From contig NZ_CP095551.1 in NCBI RefSeq assembly GCF_023078335.1, positions 1 through 64,000 on the forward strand: 64,000 nucleotides of DNA. The letters run 5' to 3'. The position numbers and the translations under genes were made by a program. Below are positions 26,629 through 34,836 of this stretch, in pieces (the stretch's first letter is position 1; every line of letters starts with the position of its first letter). This stretch comes from Metabacillus endolithicus. GTDB lineage: Bacteria > Bacillota > Bacilli > Bacillales > Bacillaceae. Under the pieces are notes generated by a model, which was not told the DNA's origin, made no database searches, and saw only the letters and a program-made list of their open reading frames with translations.

Positions 26629-26633
26629 TTATT
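26629..26633. repeat. Target site duplication, left copy
   Basis: TTATT immediately before the left inverted repeat; identical to 34832-34836. Five-base duplication is the Tn3-family hallmark. Confidence 0.9.
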
Positions 26634-26671
26634 GGGGTAGCGTCAGGAAAATGCGGATTTACAACGCTAAG
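26634..26671 (+). repeat. Left terminal inverted repeat (38 bp)
   Basis: Begins GGGGTAGCGTCAGGAAAATG and matches the reverse complement of 34794-34831 at 37 of 38 positions (C at 26667 against T). The GGGG start is typical of Tn3-family ends. Confidence 0.93.
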
Positions 26672-26701
26672 CATATTTTCGAGACGACTTCCCCATTTTT
26701 A

Positions 26702-26722
26702 ACAACGTTAAGAAAATTTCAA
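26702..26722 (+). repeat. Second copy of the inner terminal-repeat edge
   Basis: ACAACGTTAAGAAAATTTCAA matches, with one mismatch, the reverse complement of the right end just inside and across its inverted-repeat edge (34784-34804). The left end therefore has an extra 40-bp insert between two ACAACG words. Confidence 0.7.
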
Positions 26723-29674
26723 TGGTCTTAAAGAATCTAACGAGACAATTTTCTCTGAATTAAAATGGTATTCTCCTAGCAAATTAATATGTTCCCAACC
26801 TAAAGGTGACATATGGTGCAATAATTCTTCATTAAACCTACCAGACTGTTTTTGATATTCAACTGCTTTTGTTAGATGTAAGGTATTCCAGATACTAATG
26901 GCATTGATAATTATGTTTAAAGCACTGGCCCTTTGAAGTTGATGCTGTATTGTTCGTTCCCTAAGCTCTCCTTGTTTACCAAAGAAAATAGCTCTTGCCA
27001 GCCCATTCATGGCTTCTCCTTTGTTCAATCCTCTTTGTATTTTTCTTCTTAAAGATTCATCTGAAACGTAATTAAGAATAAAGATCGTTTTTTCTATTCG
27101 TCCCATTTCTCGTAAGGCTGTAGCTAGGCTGTTCTGTCTTGAATAAGAACCTAATTTCCCCATAATAAGTGATGCTGAGACTGTTCCTTCTCTTACTGAA
27201 TGGCCTAATCGTAAAACATCCTCATAATTCTCTCCAATGACTTTTGTATTAATTTGTCCACGTAAAATTGTTTCTAGTTTTGGATACTCACTTGCTTTAT
27301 CTATTGTAAATAATTTCGAGTCTGATAAATCTCTTATTCTTGGAGCAAATTTAAATCCTAATAGATGGGTTAATCCAAAAATTTGGTCTGTATAACCGGC
27401 TGTATCCGTGTAATGCTCTTCTATGTTTAGATCCGTCTCATGATGCAATAAACCATCCAATACATGAATCGCATCCCTTGAATTTGTATGAATAATCTTT
27501 GTGTAGTAAGAAGAGAACTGGTCACTCGTAAATCGATAGATGGTAGCTCCTTTTCCAGTTCCGTAATGTGGATTTGCATCTGCATGTAGTGACGAAACAC
27601 CTAACTGCATTCTCATACCATCTGACGAAGATGTTGTACCATCGCCCCAATAGGAAGACAAATGTAATTTGTGATGAAAATTTACTAATACGGCTTGGGC
27701 TTTATTCATGGCATCTTCATACATGCGCCACTGAGAAACATTTGCTAATTGCTTATATGTAAGTCCGGGTGTTGCTTCAGCCATCTTGCTCAAACCAATA
27801 TTCATTCCCATTCCTAAAAGAGCAGCCATAATAATAATCGTTTCTTCTTTATCAGGTTTTCTATTATTGGAAGCATGAGTAAATTGATCATGAAATCCTG
27901 TAATATAAGCAACATCCATGAGTAAATCGGTTAATTTTATTCTTGGTAGCATCTGATAAAGGCTTGCACTAAACTTTTTTGCCTCTTCTGGAACATCTTT
28001 TTCTAAGCGTGCGAGTGACAGCTTTCCTTTTTCAAGAGAAACCCCATCCAACTTGTTGGAATTGGAAGCTAACCACTTTAACCTTTCATTAAGGCTGCTG
28101 GTTCTCTCCTTTATATAATCCTCGAATGATAAACTAACTGATAATCTCGTATTCTCCCTCGTTTGATTCCATGTATCTTCCGAAAACAAATATTCCTCAA
28201 AATCTCTATATTGTCTGCTACCAATAATGGAAACATCTCCTGCCCGAACATGCTCCCGAAGTTCTGATAAAACAGCCATTTCATAGTAATGACGATTTAT
28301 TGTTGTACCATCATCCTCGTATAAATGCTTTTTCCATCGTTTTGAAATAAAATCCACAGGTGAGTCATTAGGCACTTTTCGTTTTCCGGATTCGTTCATT
28401 CCTCGGATAATCTCAACAGCCTTTAAAAGTGGCTCATTTGCCTTTGTGGAATGAAATTTCAATACTCTTAATAGCGTTGGCGTATATTTTCTTAGTGAAT
28501 AAAACCGTTTTTGCAGTAGGTCTAAATAATCATAGTCGGCAGGACGTGCAAGCTCCTGAGCTTCTTCGACTGAAGAGACAAAGGAATTCCATTCGATAAC
28601 GGATTCTAAAACCTCAAAAACGTCTAATTTTTCCTGTTTTGCTTTGATCAAAGCTTGTCCGATGTTCGTATAGTGTATAACTTTCTCATTCAGCTTTTTA
28701 CCGTTTTGTTTCTGAATTTCCTCTTGAGCCTTACGGCCTTTTGATAACAGACTGAGTATTTGTCTGTCATGAATTTCAAAAGCTTTATCCGTTAACTCCT
28801 GAGTAAGATTTAATAAATAGACGGTTAATATTGAATAGCGTTTATTTTCCTGAAAGTCACGGAATGCATAAGGCTCATATCTTGAACCTAAACGAGATAG
28901 CTGTAACAGGCGATTGCGATGCAAATGACTAATTTTTACCGTCCCCAATTCTATTTCCCGTATGTATTCCAGCCGTTCTATTACTTTTAGAAATGTTTCG
29001 GGTGAAGGAAGACCCGGTGGTTCCTTTAACCAACCCAATATTGTTTTATTGGATTCGGATGGAAGCTGCGAAGTTATGATCTCTTCAAGTTTTTCTTTTT
29101 GCTCATTTGTTAGAGACTGACTAACCGTATTAAATAGCTTCTTTTCAGCCATTGCTCTTGCCTCCCACACCATTCTTTCAAGTGTAGTGATAGCTGGTAG
29201 TATGATTTTGTTTTTTCTTAGAAAATCTATGCATTCATGCAGTAGATGAATGGCATCACCATTTTCCAAAGCTAATTGATGAAGGTGCTTAAATGTCATT
29301 CGATATTCTCTCAGGGTAAAAGTTACAAAGTCGTATTCACTTCGAATTTCTTTCAAATGATCCCAAAGTGTATTTTCCCTTTGAGGATAATGACTAAGCG
29401 AGGATGGACTGGCACCGATCTGTTTCGATATATATTGTAAGACTGAATCTGGGATGCTTTTGATATGAGTGTATGGCCAACCGGGATACCGAAGAACAGC
29501 TAATTGAACGGCAAATCCTAAACGGTTTTCTTCCCTCCTTCGCTTGTTAACTATTTCTAAATCCCGTTTGGAAAAAGTGAAGTAGGTCCCCAGTATCCAT
29601 TCATCTTCAGGGATTTGCATAAAAGCCTGTCTCTGTTCCGGTGTAAGCAATTCTCTACCTCTCGCAATTTTCAT
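26708..29674 (-). CDS. tnpA: Tn3-family transposase TnpA
   Basis: DDE transposase of 988 residues, the standard size. The N-terminus (ELLTPEQRQAFMQIPEDEW) is the DUF4158 DNA-binding part. The catalytic domain shows acidic residues in YWGDGTTSSSDGMRMQ, EEHYTDTAGYTDQIFG and LATALREMGRIEKTIFIL. It acts on the 38-bp ends to form a cointegrate. Divergently transcribed from tnpR, with the res site between. No frameshift, so it is probably active. Confidence 0.96.
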   Translation of the reverse strand: MKIARGRELLTPEQRQAFMQIPEDEWILGTYFTFSKRDLEIVNKRRREENRLGFAVQLAVLRYPGWPYTHIKSIPDSVLQYISKQIGASPSSLSHYPQRENTLWDHLKEIRSEYDFVTFTLREYRMTFKHLHQLALENGDAIHLLHECIDFLRKNKIILPAITTLERMVWEARAMAEKKLFNTVSQSLTNEQKEKLEEIITSQLPSESNKTILGWLKEPPGLPSPETFLKVIERLEYIREIELGTVKISHLHRNRLLQLSRLGSRYEPYAFRDFQENKRYSILTVYLLNLTQELTDKAFEIHDRQILSLLSKGRKAQEEIQKQNGKKLNEKVIHYTNIGQALIKAKQEKLDVFEVLESVIEWNSFVSSVEEAQELARPADYDYLDLLQKRFYSLRKYTPTLLRVLKFHSTKANEPLLKAVEIIRGMNESGKRKVPNDSPVDFISKRWKKHLYEDDGTTINRHYYEMAVLSELREHVRAGDVSIIGSRQYRDFEEYLFSEDTWNQTRENTRLSVSLSFEDYIKERTSSLNERLKWLASNSNKLDGVSLEKGKLSLARLEKDVPEEAKKFSASLYQMLPRIKLTDLLMDVAYITGFHDQFTHASNNRKPDKEETIIIMAALLGMGMNIGLSKMAEATPGLTYKQLANVSQWRMYEDAMNKAQAVLVNFHHKLHLSSYWGDGTTSSSDGMRMQLGVSSLHADANPHYGTGKGATIYRFTSDQFSSYYTKIIHTNSRDAIHVLDGLLHHETDLNIEEHYTDTAGYTDQIFGLTHLLGFKFAPRIRDLSDSKLFTIDKASEYPKLETILRGQINTKVIGENYEDVLRLGHSVREGTVSASLIMGKLGSYSRQNSLATALREMGRIEKTIFILNYVSDESLRRKIQRGLNKGEAMNGLARAIFFGKQGELRERTIQHQLQRASALNIIINAISIWNTLHLTKAVEYQKQSGRFNEELLHHMSPLGWEHINLLGEYHFNSEKIVSLDSLRPLKFS

Positions 29675-29689
29675 TCAGTATCATCCCAT

Positions 29690-29819
29690 TTCTGTATTTT
29701 CAATTTATTAGTTCAATTATATATCAATAGAGTGTACTCTATTGATACAAGTATAGTAGACTGATAAAATCATAGTTAAGAGTGTCTCATAAGACTTGTC
29801 TCAAAAACGAGGTGAAATT
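29690..29819. promoter_or_regulatory. res recombination site and divergent tnpA/tnpR control region
   Basis: A perfect 26-bp palindrome at 29722-29747 (TATCAATAGAGT, GT, ACTCTATTGATA) fits a resolvase-binding subsite where crossover occurs. A second possible subsite, TGTCTCATAAGACTTGTCTC, lies at about 29783. Promoters of both genes must lie here, so resolvase likely represses them. Confidence 0.75.
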
Positions 29820-30395
29820 TTGCAGAAAATCGGTTATATACGCGTCAGTTCGACTAGCCAAAATCCTTCAAGACAATTTCGGCAATTGAACGAAATTGGA
29901 ATGGATATTATTTATGAAGAAAAAATTTCAGGAGCCACAAAGGATCGTGAACAACTTCAAAAAATGTTAGAGGATTTACAGGAAGGTGACATTATTTATG
30001 TTACAGATTTAACTCGGATCACTCGAAGTACGCAAGATTTATTTGAATTGATTGATTTAATACGAAATAAAAAGGCAAGCTTAAAATCACTTAAGGATAC
30101 ATGGCTAGATTTATCAGAAGATAATCCATATAGCCAATTCTTAATTACGGTAATGGCTGGTGTTAACCAATTAGAGCGAGACCTTATTCGTATGCGTCAG
30201 CGTGAAGGAATTGAGCTCGCAAAGAAAGAAGGGAAGTTTAAAGGACGGTTAAAGAAATATCATAAAAATCACGCAGGAATGAATTATGCAGTAAAGCTAT
30301 ATAAAGAAGGAAATATGACTGTAAATCAAATTTGTGAAATTACAAATGTATCTAGGGCTTCATTATATAGAAAGCTGTCAGAAGCGAACAATTAG
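29820..30395 (+). CDS. tnpR: Serine resolvase TnpR
   Basis: Small serine recombinase, 191 residues from TTG 29820 behind ACGAGGTGAAATT. Catalytic serine in GYIRVSSTSQNPSRQ, then the family segment VTDLTRITRSTQDL, AGVNQLERDLIRMRQREGI and a C-terminal helix-turn-helix (VNQICEITNVSRASLYRKL). It resolves the transposition cointegrate at res. Confidence 0.95.
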   Translation: MQKIGYIRVSSTSQNPSRQFRQLNEIGMDIIYEEKISGATKDREQLQKMLEDLQEGDIIYVTDLTRITRSTQDLFELIDLIRNKKASLKSLKDTWLDLSEDNPYSQFLITVMAGVNQLERDLIRMRQREGIELAKKEGKFKGRLKKYHKNHAGMNYAVKLYKEGNMTVNQICEITNVSRASLYRKLSEANN

Positions 30396-30746
30396 TCACG
30401 CCTTATTTCATATAAGGCCCCGATTGTGGAGTATCTCTAATTACGTAGTAGACTAAATACTGCGCAACAAACAACTTCCTTCGTGAAAGAATGTACTTAG
30501 TAAAGAAGTAGGTTAAATAGGTGGTGGGTCAGCAAACGTGCCATTGGTATGGAGTAACTTATGGAATCTTTTAACCCTGTAAAATCCAAATAGAGAAAAC
30601 CATATTGAAACCAAAAGTCGGTTTCTTATTTCTATCTTATTTTTGAGAGTTCGACATACACTTGATTATTTAACAAGCATAGTTATGTTATTCTTGACCG
30701 TGTACCATAGTACACGGTTTATTATATTTCTGAGAGGTGAAATTTA
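30396..30746 (+). other. Spacer between tnpR and merR
   Basis: No gene seen. It holds a hairpin GAAACC/GGTTTC at 30607-30625 followed by TTATTTC, a probable terminator, and the mer promoter at its end. Confidence 0.5.
30694..30725 (+). promoter_or_regulatory. mer promoter/operator 1
   Basis: TTGACC at 30694, then the MerR dyad CCGTGTAC-CATA-GTACACGG spanning 30698-30717, then a -10 candidate TTATTA/TATTAT at 30719-30725. The spacer of 19-20 bp is the over-long spacing that MerR untwists when Hg(II) binds. It drives merR and the downstream mer genes. Confidence 0.9.
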
Positions 30747-31145
30747 ATGAGTTATCGCATTAGTGCATTTGCTGATAAATGTGGGGTAAATAAAGAGACA
30801 ATTAGATATTACGAAAGAAAGAACTTATTACAAGATCCTTTAAAAACAAATGCTGGTTATCGGATATATTCAGATGATGATGTGAAGCGTGTAGGGTTTA
30901 TTAAACGTATACAAGAGCTTGGCTTTACTTTAAGTGAGATTTATAAATTACTTGGTGTTGTTGATAAGGATGAAGTTCGCTGTGAAGATATGTTTGAATT
31001 TGTATCTAAAAAAGAGGAAGAAGTTCAAAAACAAATAGAGGACTTAAAACGGATTGATCTTATGTTGAAAGATTTAAAAAGGCGATGTCCAGATGAAAAA
31101 CAATTACATGCCTGCCCAATCATTGAAACATTGATTGAGGACTAA
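30747..31145 (+). CDS. merR: Mercury-responsive regulator MerR
   Basis: MerR-family activator/repressor, 132 residues. N-terminal winged helix with ETIRYYERKNLL, then a coiled-coil. The three Hg(II)-binding cysteines are present: Cys79 (VRCEDM), Cys114 (RRCPDE) and Cys123 (HACPII). Start behind TGAGAGGTGAAATTTA. As in Gram-positive mer operons, merR is the first gene and is co-directional. Confidence 0.96.
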   Translation: MSYRISAFADKCGVNKETIRYYERKNLLQDPLKTNAGYRIYSDDDVKRVGFIKRIQELGFTLSEIYKLLGVVDKDEVRCEDMFEFVSKKEEEVQKQIEDLKRIDLMLKDLKRRCPDEKQLHACPIIETLIED

Positions 31146-31161
31146 TGAAAGGAATTTAGAA

Positions 31162-31389
31162 ATGAAACATAAAAAGACCTTTATTGCAGGGCTTATAGGT
31201 ACATTTTTGGTTTTGTTATGTTGTGCTACACCTATTTTAGTTATTTTATTAGGTACGCTTGGATTAGGCGCAATAACAGGCTATTTAGATTTTGTTCTGA
31301 TTCCTGTTTTAGCTGTTTTTCTTGGTTTAACTTTTTATGCTTATTCTAAATATGAAAAATCACATAAAAAAAGGAGATGTAAAAAATGA
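31162..31389 (+). CDS. merF: MerF-like mercury transporter
   Basis: A 75-residue, two-helix membrane protein starting at ATG 31162. The first helix ends in LLCCATPILVILLGTLGLG, the vicinal CC-x-TP pattern of MerF, which moves Hg(II) inward. The second helix is LDFVLIPVLAVFLGLTFYAY, with a basic tail KKRRC. Both cysteines are normal codons here, in contrast to the next two genes. It overlaps the merT-like start by four bases. Confidence 0.85.
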   Translation: MKHKKTFIAGLIGTFLVLLCCATPILVILLGTLGLGAITGYLDFVLIPVLAVFLGLTFYAYSKYEKSHKKRRCKK

Positions 31390-31685
31390 AAGAAAGAGTT
31401 GTTGCAATTGCTTCGATGTTTTCAGCTTTTTTAGCAAGTCTTTGTTGAATTGGCTTAGCGATCTTAATACCACTTGGTCTAAGTGGTTTAGCTGGAACAC
31501 TTGCCGTTACGTTTGCGCCATATCGAATTTGGTTTATTGTTATCACGGTTATTATGCTTTCTTTTGCTCATTTACTTGTATGGAAACAAAAAAATAGTTC
31601 AAAGAAAACGAAGAAGTTGGTATGGGTTAGTACAATCGTTTCTGGGGTAATGCTTATCTATACATTGTTCAGTCAGGGGATATAA
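31386..31685 (+). CDS. merT: MerT-like mercury transporter with in-frame UGA (probable selenoprotein)
   Basis: The frame from ATG 31386 (behind AAAGGAGATGTAAAAA) runs 99 codons to TAA 31683 with one internal TGA at codon 21. The sequence FLASLC-UGA-IGLAILIPLGLSG aligns with the MerT pattern ASxCCxGPLxLIxLGxSG, so TGA sits exactly at the second Cys of the Hg-binding CC pair; FAPYRIWFI then matches MerT. Three membrane segments. A hairpin at 31469-31487 with apical GGTCT follows, as expected for a SECIS. Reading UGA as selenocysteine gives a full MerT. Without Sec machinery the gene would be a truncated pseudogene. Confidence 0.8.
31469..31487 (+). promoter_or_regulatory. Putative SECIS hairpin in merT-like gene
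   Basis: ACCACTT pairs perfectly with AAGTGGT around the loop GGTCT, the same loop bases as in Escherichia coli fdhF (AGGUCU). The loop G lies 28 nt after the UGA, within the 16-37 nt window used for bacterial SECIS models. Confidence 0.75.
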
Positions 31686-31688
31686 GGC

Positions 31689-32012
31689 ATGATGAAATAT
31701 TTAATATATCTATTCATTGTATTTGGATTGGTTGTTGTCCTTTCTGGGTGTGGTCAAAAAGCAGTTGAAGAAGGTTCAAAAACAAGAGAGGTTCCATCGG
31801 AAAACTTAGAATCTGTTTCGTTTAAAATAGATGGTTTTACTTGAGTATCTTGCGCTTTTACGGTGAGTTCCGCCGTTTCTAATTTAGAGGGTATTCAAGA
31901 TATAGAAGTTGAAGGATCAGGAGAAGCCCAACTTACATTTGATAAATCGAAAACTAGCTTAGAAGAAATTGAAGAAATAATTACTGATTTAGGGTATGAA
32001 ATAAGGAAATAG
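31689..32012 (+). CDS. merP: MerP-like lipoprotein with in-frame UGA (probable selenoprotein)
   Basis: The frame from ATG 31689 runs 107 codons to TAG 32010 with one TGA at codon 52. A lipoprotein signal ends in VVLSGC (Cys21). The mature part is a heavy-metal-associated domain: [21 protein letters not shown] matches GMTCxxC, with TGA in place of the first metal-binding Cys and Cys55 normal. The rest, [17 protein letters not shown] and IITDLGYEI, is typical HMA. A SECIS-like hairpin starts 16 nt after the TGA. It would bind Hg(II) outside the membrane and pass it to MerT. Confidence 0.8.
31860..31876 (+). promoter_or_regulatory. Putative SECIS hairpin in merP-like gene
   Basis: ACGGTG pairs with CGCCGT (one wobble) around loop AGTTC, with a G in the first two loop positions, 21-23 nt after the UGA. 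This fits the bacterial SECIS model. Confidence 0.65.
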
Positions 32013-32044
32013 GAAAATTTAAGATAAAACAGGAGGTTGAAGTA

Positions 32045-33685
32045 ATGAATAAATTTAAGATAAATATTCAAGGAATGACTTGTACGGGTTGTGAAGAGCA
32101 TGTGGCAGTAGCACTTGAAAATATAGGTGCTAGAAATATTGAAGCTAGTTTTCGTTGTGGTGAAGCAGTATTTGAATTACCCAATGATATTGGGGTTGAA
32201 AGTGCAAAAAAGGCAATTGATGAAGCAAAATATCAACCTGGAGAAATAGAAGAAGTACAATCTGAAGAAAAAGTGGTTTTAGGTGATGAGGGAGATTATG
32301 ACTTACTTATCATTGGTTCTGGTGAAACTGCTTTTTCGGCTGCGATTAAATCCGTTGAATACGGGGCAAAAGTAGCCATGATTGAGCGTGGAACCGTTGG
32401 GGGAACATGTGTAAATATTGGTTGTGTGCCATCAAAAACACTTCTTAGAGCTGGGGAAATCAATCATTTAGCAAAAGTTAATCCATTTATAGGTTTACAG
32501 GCATCTGCTGGAAAAGTGGAATTAGCTCCTTTAGTAAAGCAAAAAGATGAGTTAGTAAGCGAACTTCGGAATCAAAAATATGTCAATTTAATTGATGAAT
32601 ATGGCTTTGAGTTAATTGAAGGTGAAGCAATATTTGTTGATGAAAATACAGTTAAAGTTAACGGGAAGAAACTTTCTGCAAAGCGTTTCTTAATTGCAAC
32701 GGGCGCTTCTCCTTCCTTACCGCCGATTTCAGGACTTGAAAAAGTGGATTATTTAACAAGTACAACACTACTTGAATTAAAAAAGGTGCCAAAACGATTA
32801 ACGGTTATTGGTTCAGGATATATCGGAATGGAACTTGGGCAATTGTTTCATAATTTAGGTTCAGAAGTCACGCTTATGCAAAGAAGTGAGCGACTTTTAA
32901 AAGAATATGATCCAGAAATTTCAGAAGCCGTAGAAAAAGCGTTAATTGAACAAGGTATTAACCTTGTAAAAGGGGCAACTTTTGAGCGTGTAGAACAAGA
33001 GGGGCAAATCAAAAAGGTTCATGTAACAGTAGATGGTAAGAAAAAAGTGGTGGAATCAGAGCAGTTACTTGTTGCAACAGGAAGAAAACCAAATACAGAT
33101 TCTTTGAATTTAAGTGCCGCAGGGGTTGAAGTTGGAAAACGAAAAGAAATCCTGATAAATGACTACGCTAGGACAAGTAATGAAAAGATTTATGCAGCAG
33201 GCGATGTAACATTAGGACCTCAATTCGTTTATGTAGCAGCATATGAAGGTGGAATTGTTGCCGATAATGCGATTGGCGGATTAAATAAAAAATTAGATTT
33301 ATCCGTTGTTCCTGGCGTAACTTTTACCAATCCATCGATTGCAACGGTTGGGTTGACAGAAGCACAAGCAAGAGAAAAAGGCTATGAAGTAAAAACATCT
33401 GTATTGCCTTTAGATGCCGTTCCAAGAGCGATAGTAAACCGTGAAACAACAGGTGTGTTTAAACTTGTTGCGGATTCGAAAACATTAAAAGTGCTTGGGG
33501 TTCATATTGTATCTGAAAATGCAGGCGATGTGATTTATGCAGCGACTTTAGCCGTTAGGTTTAGCTTAACCGTAGAGGATTTAAAAGAAAGCCTTGCACC
33601 ATATTTAACAATGGCAGAAGGATTAAAATTAGCTGCTCTTACCTTTGATAAAGATGTATCGAAATTATCTTGTTGTGCAGGATGA
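32045..33685 (+). CDS. merA: Mercuric reductase MerA
   Basis: FAD- and NADPH-dependent cytoplasmic enzyme reducing Hg(II) to Hg(0), 546 residues. N-terminal HMA domain with GMTCTGC (Cys13, Cys16); FAD motif [15 protein letters not shown]; redox-active pair [19 protein letters not shown] motif [19 protein letters not shown]-binding YAAGDVT; and the C-terminal vicinal cysteines SCCAG that deliver Hg(II) to the partner subunit. Start behind ACAGGAGGTTGAAGTA. All cysteines are normal codons. Confidence 0.97.
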
Positions 33686-33689
33686 TAAA

Positions 33690-33719
33690 AGAGGTTCCCA
33701 TTAGGGACCCTTTTTTATT
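33690..33719 (+). terminator. Terminator after merA
   Basis: GGTTCCC pairs with GGGACCC (one mismatch) across ATTA, followed by TTTTTT. Confidence 0.8.
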
Positions 33720-33821: not shown

Positions 33822-33853
33822 TTGACCCTGTACTATGGTACGTGGTTCATACT
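33822..33853 (+). promoter_or_regulatory. mer promoter/operator 2
   Basis: TTGACC at 33822, an imperfect MerR dyad around GTACTATGGTAC, and a -10 candidate CATACT at 33848, spacer 20 bp. It drives the second merR unit. Confidence 0.8.
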
Positions 33854-33875
33854 AATAACAGAGGAGGGAAAAGAA

Positions 33876-34292
33876 ATGGAAGGATTGACAATAAGCCAAC
33901 TAGCAAAAGTTTGTGAGGTCAATATTGAAACCATTCGCTATTATGAAAGGCGTGGTTTAATTCCTAAACCTCCTCGAAACAATTCGGGATATAGAAAATT
34001 TCCTGAAGGTTTTGTAAAGGACATTCAGTTTATTAAAAGGACACAGGATTTAGGATTTACATTAGAAGAAATAAAAAATCTGTTAACTGCTTCAAATAAT
34101 GAAGATTTTCGTTCAGAAGAAGTACATGATTTTGCCACAAGCAAAATCAAAGAAATTGAAGAAAGAATCGAAAATATGCACCAAATGAAAGCATTACTGG
34201 AAGATTTAGCAGAAAAGTGTCCTGGTTCTGGGGTTTCCAAAAACGATTGTCCTATTATCAAAAATTTTAAAGGAGTGAATGAAAATGGCTAA
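33876..34292 (+). CDS. Second MerR-family regulator, one ligand Cys replaced
   Basis: A 138-residue MerR-type regulator from ATG 33876 behind AGAGGAGGGAAAAGAA. DNA-binding ETIRYYERRGLIPKPPR. The C-terminal binding region keeps Cys115 (EKCPGSG) and Cys125 (NDCPII), but the position of the first Hg ligand is Ser80 (FRSEEVHDF), so a classical three-thiolate Hg site is not possible. It may sense another thiophilic agent, or use only two cysteines. Overlaps the thioredoxin-like gene. Confidence 0.85.
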   Translation: MEGLTISQLAKVCEVNIETIRYYERRGLIPKPPRNNSGYRKFPEGFVKDIQFIKRTQDLGFTLEEIKNLLTASNNEDFRSEEVHDFATSKIKEIEERIENMHQMKALLEDLAEKCPGSGVSKNDCPIIKNFKGVNENG

Positions 34293-34557
34293 ACGATTAG
34301 TAGAAGTATTTACATCAGGTTGCTATCTTTGTGATGACGTTGTAAAACAAGTGAAAGACCTTGCCTGTGATAATTGTGAGGTTGTCGTTTACGATTTAAA
34401 TGAAGGTTGCGATACGAACGAATGTGAAGCAAAAGCAAAGGAATACGGCGTTAAATCAGTCCCAGCAGTTGCAATTAACGGCGAATTAGTAGATTGTTGC
34501 AAAAATAATGGAATCGATATTGAATCAATAAAAGCGGCAGGATTAGGTCAAGGATAA
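34285..34557 (+). CDS. Thioredoxin-fold mercury-operon protein
   Basis: A 90-residue glutaredoxin-like protein; start at ATG 34285 (ATG 34279 is possible) behind AAAGGAGTGAATGAAA. Active site TSGCYLCDD, cis-Pro in KSVPAVAING, and extra cysteines (LACDNCE, EGCDTNECE, DCCKNNG) rare in housekeeping thioredoxins. Translation is coupled to the second merR. It probably binds or shuttles soft metal ions or repairs thiols during Hg stress. Confidence 0.8.
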   Translation: MAKRLVEVFTSGCYLCDDVVKQVKDLACDNCEVVVYDLNEGCDTNECEAKAKEYGVKSVPAVAINGELVDCCKNNGIDIESIKAAGLGQG

Positions 34558-34781: not shown

Positions 34782-34793
34782 TATTGAAATTTC

Positions 34794-34831
34794 CTTAACG
34801 TTGTAAATCCGCATTTTCCTGACGCTACCCC
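34794..34831 (-). repeat. Right terminal inverted repeat (38 bp)
   Basis: Ends ...TTTTCCTGACGCTACCCC; reverse complement of 26634-26671 with one mismatch. Confidence 0.93.
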
Positions 34832-34836
34832 TTATT
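34832..34836. repeat. Target site duplication, right copy
   Basis: TTATT directly after the right inverted repeat, identical to 26629-26633. Confidence 0.9.

Follow-up and report, generated by a model that had tools for sequence, protein, structure and literature searches.

A mer cassette with two selenoprotein-type genes on a Tn3-family transposon, apparently carried beyond the range of selenocysteine decoding

In the window (the whole stretch of DNA analysed, 64,000 nucleotides), the mercury transporter gene merT raises an unusual question, as its frame is interrupted by a TGA that falls on a metal-binding position. Does this codon specify selenocysteine (Sec, U), does it do so in the window's own Metabacillus host, and what history would have placed it there? 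A sequence-only reading had proposed that Sec is inserted into this MerT, with a hairpin just downstream as the signal. The features at issue, which include a second gene with an in-frame TGA, are the following.

31386..31685, + strand: merT, selenoprotein-type gene, 99 codons; matches PF02411 with the TGA read as Cys
31446..31448, + strand: in-frame TGA, merT codon 21, second Cys of the MerT CC pair; predicted Sec codon in Sec-decoding hosts
31469..31487, + strand: apical hairpin of the merT SECIS, stem of 7 bp, with the loop GGUCU placed 27 nt past the TGA; covariation across 29 distinct sequences, MFE -7.9
31689..32012, + strand: merP, HMA-domain protein (PF00403), 107 codons, second selenoprotein-type gene; N-terminus lipoprotein-signal-like by eye
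31842..31844, + strand: in-frame TGA, merP codon 52, first Cys of CxxC (GFT-U-VSC), the position of the metal-binding Cys of HMA proteins
31860..31876, + strand: merP SECIS-like hairpin, 6-bp stem, loop AGUUC; fits published length, loop, spacing and energy limits

The TGA at 31446-31448 is the sole interruption of the 99-codon frame and sits on the second Cys of the CC pair, just as the sequence-only reading had described it; the residues around it read S-L-C-U, and column 21 of the alignment is occupied by Cys in Cys-type MerT proteins. With the TGA read as Cys, the product scores 36.9 bits against PF02411 (cut-off 32.9), which places it in the MerT family, and 80.9 bits against the stricter NF033560, under the cut-off of 130. 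The second TGA, absent from that earlier reading, lies in the gene directly after merT: the merP frame contains this single TGA, in the context GFT-TGA-VSC, and its product, read in the same way, scores 42.3 bits against PF00403 (cut-off 24.8).

Both genes belong to a mer operon with the order merR, merF, merT, merP, merA, a second merR-type gene and a thioredoxin-like gene. The operon sits within an 8,198-bp element on the smaller of the two contigs of the 5.3-Mb host genome, and the element has the marks of the Tn3 family, namely 45-nt inverted repeats (93%), a transposase, a resolvase and a perfect TTATT duplication.

26629..26633, no strand: left target-site duplication, TTATT, 5 bp; identical to 34832-34836
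26634..26678, + strand: left end of the Tn3-type transposon, terminal inverted repeat of 45 nt; complementary to 34787-34831 at 93%
26708..29674, - strand: Tn3-family transposase, 988 aa; ORF, matches annotated Tn3 family transposases at the DNA level
29796..30395, + strand: resolvase/recombinase; ORF, matching records annotate a recombinase family protein
30747..31145, + strand: merR, Hg(II)-responsive regulator; TIGR02051, 181.5 bits (cut-off 150.85)
31162..31389, + strand: merF, Hg transporter, CC pair intact; NF033565, 88.4 bits (cut-off 50)
32045..33685, + strand: merA, mercury(II) reductase; TIGR02053, 646.4 bits (cut-off 454.45)
33822..34292, + strand: second MerR-family regulator; PF13411, 66.5 bits, over cut-off; TIGR02051, 140.3 bits, under 150.85
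34279..34557, + strand: small thioredoxin-like protein; PF13192, 28.9 bits (cut-off 24.8)
34787..34831, + strand: right terminal inverted repeat; complementary to the left repeat
34832..34836, no strand: right target-site duplication, TTATT, 5 bp; identical to 26629-26633

The region 30700-33690 has a mosaic look, its merR part being 80-86% identical to the Cytobacillus firmus M7 and E. faecalis copies and its merT-merP part 98-100%. The transposon backbone (26634-30395 and 34787-34831) is ~91-93% identical to its counterpart on plasmids of Bacillus, Listeria and other sources, where the cargo differs; of the 15 PLSDB records listed out of 437, Metabacillus sp. B2-18 alone has the backbone joined to this mer operon, with a gap in the transposase.

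The two TGAs could have arisen separately in decaying genes, as nonsense mutations or as errors of sequencing, and the assembly does hold indel-like errors in four tRNA-fMet copies, while the merT hairpin by itself is only mildly improbable. Against this, both TGAs fall on metal-binding Cys codons, and independent records that span ten genera carry them too (Cytobacillus, Alkalihalophilus, Aquibacillus, Geomicrobium, Metabacillus, Enterococcus, Aerococcus, Marinilactibacillus, Ruoffia and Alkalibacterium). At merT codon 21, TGA is present in all six PLSDB loci translated and in 9/9 close genome loci (L075 is the same plasmid as L054); the merP TGA is present in the same six PLSDB loci and in 8/9 close genome loci, the merP of the ninth, from Aquibacillus, being internally deleted. 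Homologues were gathered from plasmids, genome contigs and whole genomes. The close PLSDB records number 16, of which these 6 were translated; for the remaining ten the form is deduced from their equal tblastn scores. Within the family of the host, a MerT match is found in 3 of 80 genomes, and TGA occurs only in the window's own copy and in the broken copy of Metabacillus B2-18; Cys forms are found beside the B2-18 copy in the same genome and in the third matching genome.

The merT site is also occupied by TGA far outside this close group. In an even sample of 398 genomes of the phylum, 27 have a MerT match, at 34 places (32 with one TGA, one with a TAA and one with no stop), and 26, the window's host included, have a MerT with TGA at the same site. 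Among 29 distant loci, which leave out the TGA places in G091 and G167 and one TGA and one TAA place in G297, the aligned site is TGA in 28 and Cys in one (L189), so that the TGA/Cys comparison among homologues suggested by the sequence-only reading comes out in its favour. A Cys precedes the U by one or three places in all 28, and the C/SxxU motif given in the available text of PMC13188914 fits 16 of the 28 as well as the window. In a MerT tree of 58 proteins and 101 columns, which includes 23 of the 44 more distant genome-contig loci, the window falls among the TGA forms and 18 Cys forms from Bacilli fall in one starred clade; many forks are unsure, and we use the tree as support only. Viral contigs scanned for MerT gave no relative. 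In 3 of the 29 distant loci, all in SelB-encoding genomes, MerT is adjoined by a MerP that has TGA at the corresponding Cys. By eye, these pairs (L164, L167 and L169) lie near ArsR-type and ferredoxin-like genes, and no merA was recognised in the short stretches examined around them.

The association with Sec decoding was evaluated in the same phylum sample. SelB is over cut-off in all 25 TGA-MerT genomes other than the window's host and in 36 of 53 genomes taken to be without a MerT match, the latter being the first by number among phylum genomes not listed as MerT matches (Fisher p = 0.0008, or 0.004 if the window's host is counted). A B. subtilis control genome gave no SelB match at E 1e-60.

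Selection on the codons after the TGA bears further on decay. Between distant copies, merT gives post-TGA dN/dS values of 0.13 (window and A. pseudofirmus OF4), 0.17 (window and Aquibacillus), 0.17 (C. firmus DS1 and OF4) and 0.21 (OF4 and Aquibacillus), and merP gives 0.23 (window and OF4) and 0.19 (DS1 and OF4). By these values, purifying selection acts between distant copies on the codons that follow the TGA, and hence the full-length proteins were used over deeper history. Close pairs give merT values of 0.45, 0.61, 0.30 and one undefined, and merP values of 1.42, 0.28 and two undefined, with 0-2 synonymous changes each, and are too similar for selection to be judged. With selection persisting past the TGA and TGA at the merT site in 28 distant loci, nonsense mutation or sequencing error is already refuted for merT, and for the pair of genes we give it practically no credence. 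On this sequence evidence, merT and merP are authentic selenoprotein genes.

The merT hairpin pairs 31469-31475 with 31481-31487 around the loop GGTCT at 31476-31480, a perfect 7-bp stem that starts 20 nt past the TGA, as claimed earlier. Both hairpins lie within the bSECIS limits given in the available text of PMC13188914 (a loop of 3-9 nt that lies 16-37 nt past the UGA and has G at its first or second position, a stem of 4-16 bp, MFE <= -7.5): the merT hairpin has a 5-nt loop GGUCU, 7 bp, a spacing of 27 nt and -7.9, and the merP hairpin has a 5-nt loop AGUUC, 6 bp, a spacing of 21 nt and -7.6. RNAfold assigns the merT hairpin an MFE of -7.9 kcal/mol (z -2.0; an energy that 12 of 200 shuffles match) and adds a G-U pair within the loop. 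When synonymous codons are reshuffled with the protein preserved, an equal or longer stem in an allowed place arises in 3.4% of reshuffles for merT and 17% for merP, and the folding energy is matched in 23% and 17%, respectively, which is not extreme. Taken alone, the merT hairpin is only mildly unusual and is weak evidence; it rises above chance because of its conservation and covariation in relatives.

These were evaluated in a structure alignment of 29 distinct merT sequences, in which the close group is represented by the window, L054 and L073 only and L166, a near-copy of L165, is excluded. Standard pairs occupy 84.2% of the stem cells, compared to 71.5% in shuffles and 34-56% when the stem is slid by 1-3 bases, and the covariation score is 0.426 against 0.230 in shuffles, a score that none of 500 shuffles reaches, a type of comparison that relatedness of the sequences can inflate. 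Two of the five covariation measures are at shuffle level (both-sides-changed pairs, 3 vs 2.9; further pair types, 14 vs 13.5). The strongest single point for covariation in the alignment is the synonymous pair of columns 30-36, which lies at third codon positions on both sides of the stem and is occupied by CG in 8, AU in 6, UA in 5 and GC in 4 of the 29 sequences; the permutation fractions for Watson-Crick pairs are <=0.0002 at the three third-third position pairs. The loop is GGUCU in 19/29 sequences. Covariation in homologues, which the sequence-only reading had named as a check, is thus present at synonymous positions, and the merT hairpin is, as judged from these comparisons, the SECIS of the gene family. 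Between the window and Aquibacillus, synonymous changes are found in 0 of 12 comparable merT hairpin codons and in 24 of 67 elsewhere (Fisher p = 0.014, for a 12-codon window picked post hoc from the alignment), and 6 of 281 comparable windows of merA are likewise unchanged. In three distant merP genes, the hairpin seems to be placed further downstream than in the window's merP.

The Sec machinery gives a different answer for the window's host than for some hosts of its close relatives. In the window's host genome (two contigs, 99.7% complete), no match to SelA, SelB, SelD or tRNA-Sec (selC) reaches cut-off, so the search of the host for sel genes that the sequence-only reading had called for came back negative. 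That reading had named, among the results that would count against it, the joint absence of sel genes in the host and of any related sequence with TGA at this site; the first absence holds here and the second does not, given the 28 distant loci. In the ten hosts of close copies, SelA and SelB are over cut-off in the same three, Cytobacillus firmus DS1, Aquibacillus salsiterrae and Alkalihalophilus pseudofirmus OF4, and tRNA-Sec is over cut-off in these three of nine hosts, the window's host, scored separately, being under; only these 3/10 therefore have the machinery that a selenoprotein gene needs. SelA and SelB over cut-off are absent from the other 7/10 (the window's host, Metabacillus B2-18, Aerococcus, Marinilactibacillus, Ruoffia, Alkalibacterium and Geomicrobium). 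The best sub-threshold tRNA-Sec scores approach the cut-off of 47 bits, with 44.3 in the window's host, 44.9 in Marinilactibacillus and 45.6 in Geomicrobium, and the two best sub-threshold matches in the window's host fall on tRNA-Ser genes.

In OF4 and Aquibacillus, SelD has its own in-frame TGA (STKGG or STKAG, then U, then GCKIGPEDL), which suggests that Sec decoding is alive there; the SelD motif was not found in the C. firmus stretches examined. The selD genes of OF4 and Aquibacillus (L159 and L160) have selA and selB nearby, together with ABC transporter genes that by eye resemble phosphonate-type uptake systems. None of 12 formate dehydrogenase matches in the three Sec hosts has an in-frame stop, so that gene provides no host SECIS for comparison.

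The notion that the window's host does insert Sec, by machinery that was missed, would draw on a genome that is 99.7% rather than 100% complete and on a tRNA-Sec search in which 150 of 279 candidates were scored. It is opposed by the fact that SelA, SelB, SelD and tRNA-Sec are all below cut-off in a two-contig assembly, and that identical searches detect SelA, SelB and tRNA-Sec in three Bacillaceae, and we consider it very improbable. Nor was a tRNA found that would read UGA: the UCA anticodon occurs in 0 of 145 tRNA genes found in the host's tRNA clusters, and no tRNA lies within the 64-kb window. The tRNA search of the whole genome scored 150 of 429 candidates, and an odd tRNA may have escaped it. 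Four genes of undetermined anticodon ('ttca', 'at', 'ca' and 'ccat') were considered as suppressor tRNAs and rejected, as they are tRNA-fMet copies with indels. The anticodon loop of these copies (L138, L152, L154 and L157, host chromosome) contains indels or changes that the other, normal copies lack, which looks like assembly error in the window's genome.

With no SelA, SelB, SelD, tRNA-Sec or UCA-anticodon tRNA detected, both UGAs should be stops in the window's host, where merT should end after 20 residues and merP should give a 51-residue fragment. The earlier claim that Sec is inserted in MerT is therefore upheld for the gene family, by the TGA in 28 of 29 distant loci, the hairpin covariation and SelB in all 25 other TGA-MerT genomes, and not for this host.

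We consider it very likely that the locus is a stranded mer cassette with two selenoprotein genes, of Sec-decoded origin, that moved into Sec-less hosts in which its UGAs act as stops. In the ancestral cassette, MerT and MerP would both have been selenoproteins, with Sec replacing one metal-binding Cys in each. In Sec hosts, SelB would read the merT hairpin and Sec would enter MerT, the insertion itself being inferred; the merP UGA is probably decoded as Sec in these hosts as well, and MerT and MerP would pass Hg on to MerA. Hg(II) is bound more tightly by selenolate than by thiolate. Plasmid and transposon would then have carried the cassette into hosts without Sec machinery, including the window's Metabacillus, where the stops would leave the two short fragments, MerF and MerA. 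Resistance in the window's host most likely rests on MerF and MerA, since this MerF keeps its CC pair. Other bacteria that carry closely related copies can probably still make their MerT and MerP.

The state of the Sec-less copies bears on an alternative, in which a standard tRNA (for Trp or Cys, misreading the codon) or a suppressor not recognised as such reads through the UGAs in these hosts, and some selenium-free MerT and MerP is made. UGA read-through as Trp occurs in Bacillus. The frame after the TGA is open in 6/7 Sec-less copies of merT and 6/7 of merP, the exceptions being the merT of Metabacillus sp. B2-18 (L055, NZ_CP088246.1, 166547-166844), which keeps the TGA and has a frameshift just after it, and the merP of Aerococcus L067, which is altered close to its end. 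In addition, one Cys of the MerF CC pair is gone (CW or GC) in 5 of 13 relatives, all Lactobacillales (L067-L071, from Aerococcus, Marinilactibacillus, Ruoffia and Alkalibacterium), and the merT frame is kept in all five, which would be sensible if MerT still works; with this loss, MerF is not a dependable back-up everywhere. However, the Sec-less copies compared differ so little from those of C. firmus that an open frame requires no selection, and neither the tRNA genes found in the host's clusters, 0/145 of which have a UCA anticodon, nor the four indel-bearing tRNA-fMet copies offer a suppressor. Trp at the MerT Sec site is not expected to bind Hg. We therefore give read-through a low probability, and favour the stranded cassette, in which decay appears to have begun in some Sec-less copies (B2-18 merT and Aerococcus L067 merP).

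A tentative extension, which we think rather unlikely, is that import of Hg is gated by selenium in two modes: where UGA is decoded, the cassette would give high-affinity MerT-U and MerP-U, and elsewhere MerR, MerF and MerA only. If so, a selenoprotein operon could spread past the Sec boundary harmlessly, with unneeded Hg import off where Sec is lacking.

The Sec-decoding Aquibacillus has lost parts of merF and merP and retains the merT frame, TGA and hairpin, so a selenoprotein MerT appears to be the sole transporter left in that operon. With merT as the only intact transport gene of its operon, this copy makes the role of Sec in Hg transport directly testable.

In terms of known systems, selenoprotein MerT as such is a prediction already on record, as a 'Putative mercuric transport protein' (PF02411 MerT, C/SxxU, ABB16073.1) is listed as a predicted selenoprotein in the available portions of PMC9312934 and PMC13188914. 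Its Sec site looks the same as that of the window (S-L-C-U), as likened by the motif description, and those portions name no plasmid or transposon copies, paired MerP or Sec-less hosts. MerP is a predicted selenoprotein in a metagenomic row, with a count of 2, of the ocean survey table in the available part of PMC2398784; here the MerP gene adjoins merT in a complete mer operon. The MerT/CopZ fusion-like heavy metal transport selenoprotein of NF045683 is similar, by its name, in combining MerT-like and HMA-like parts, but it is a single fused protein, and at 23.9 and 31.9 bits the two proteins of the window stay below its cut-off of 375, outside the family. SaoL, SaoB, SaoC and HgcA/B are selenoprotein mercury/organometal families (Haft and Gwadz 2023, cited in PMC13188914); they are also tied to mercury or organometal handling but are other protein families, and the available text of PMC13188914 names no MerT/MerP operon among them. 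Gram-positive Cys-type mer transposons, for example on Listeria, Priestia and Exiguobacterium plasmids, share a recombinase, merR, merT, merP and merA in 4/4 loci inspected, and the Listeria and Priestia loci have a Tn3 transposase, as in the window. Unlike the window's MerT, to which they are ~36-42% identical, the two Cys-type MerT proteins translated (L056 and L057) have their CC from sense codons.

A non-exhaustive literature search found no report of Sec-less hosts that carry, by transposon or plasmid, a mer operon with two selenoproteins. What appears to be new is thus the spread of such a cassette past the range of Sec decoding, the predicted selenoprotein MerT and MerP families being known already. 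Selenoprotein genes are usually thought to be tied to hosts that decode them, and here a pair has been carried into 7/10 tested host genomes without SelA and SelB. The copies in Sec-less hosts mostly keep their frames and SECIS, and constitute a natural experiment on recoded genes that cross a decoding barrier. They also expose an annotation problem: in the 4/4 annotated plasmid records inspected that list merT, the TGA-containing merT is annotated at full length, and merP is split or omitted.
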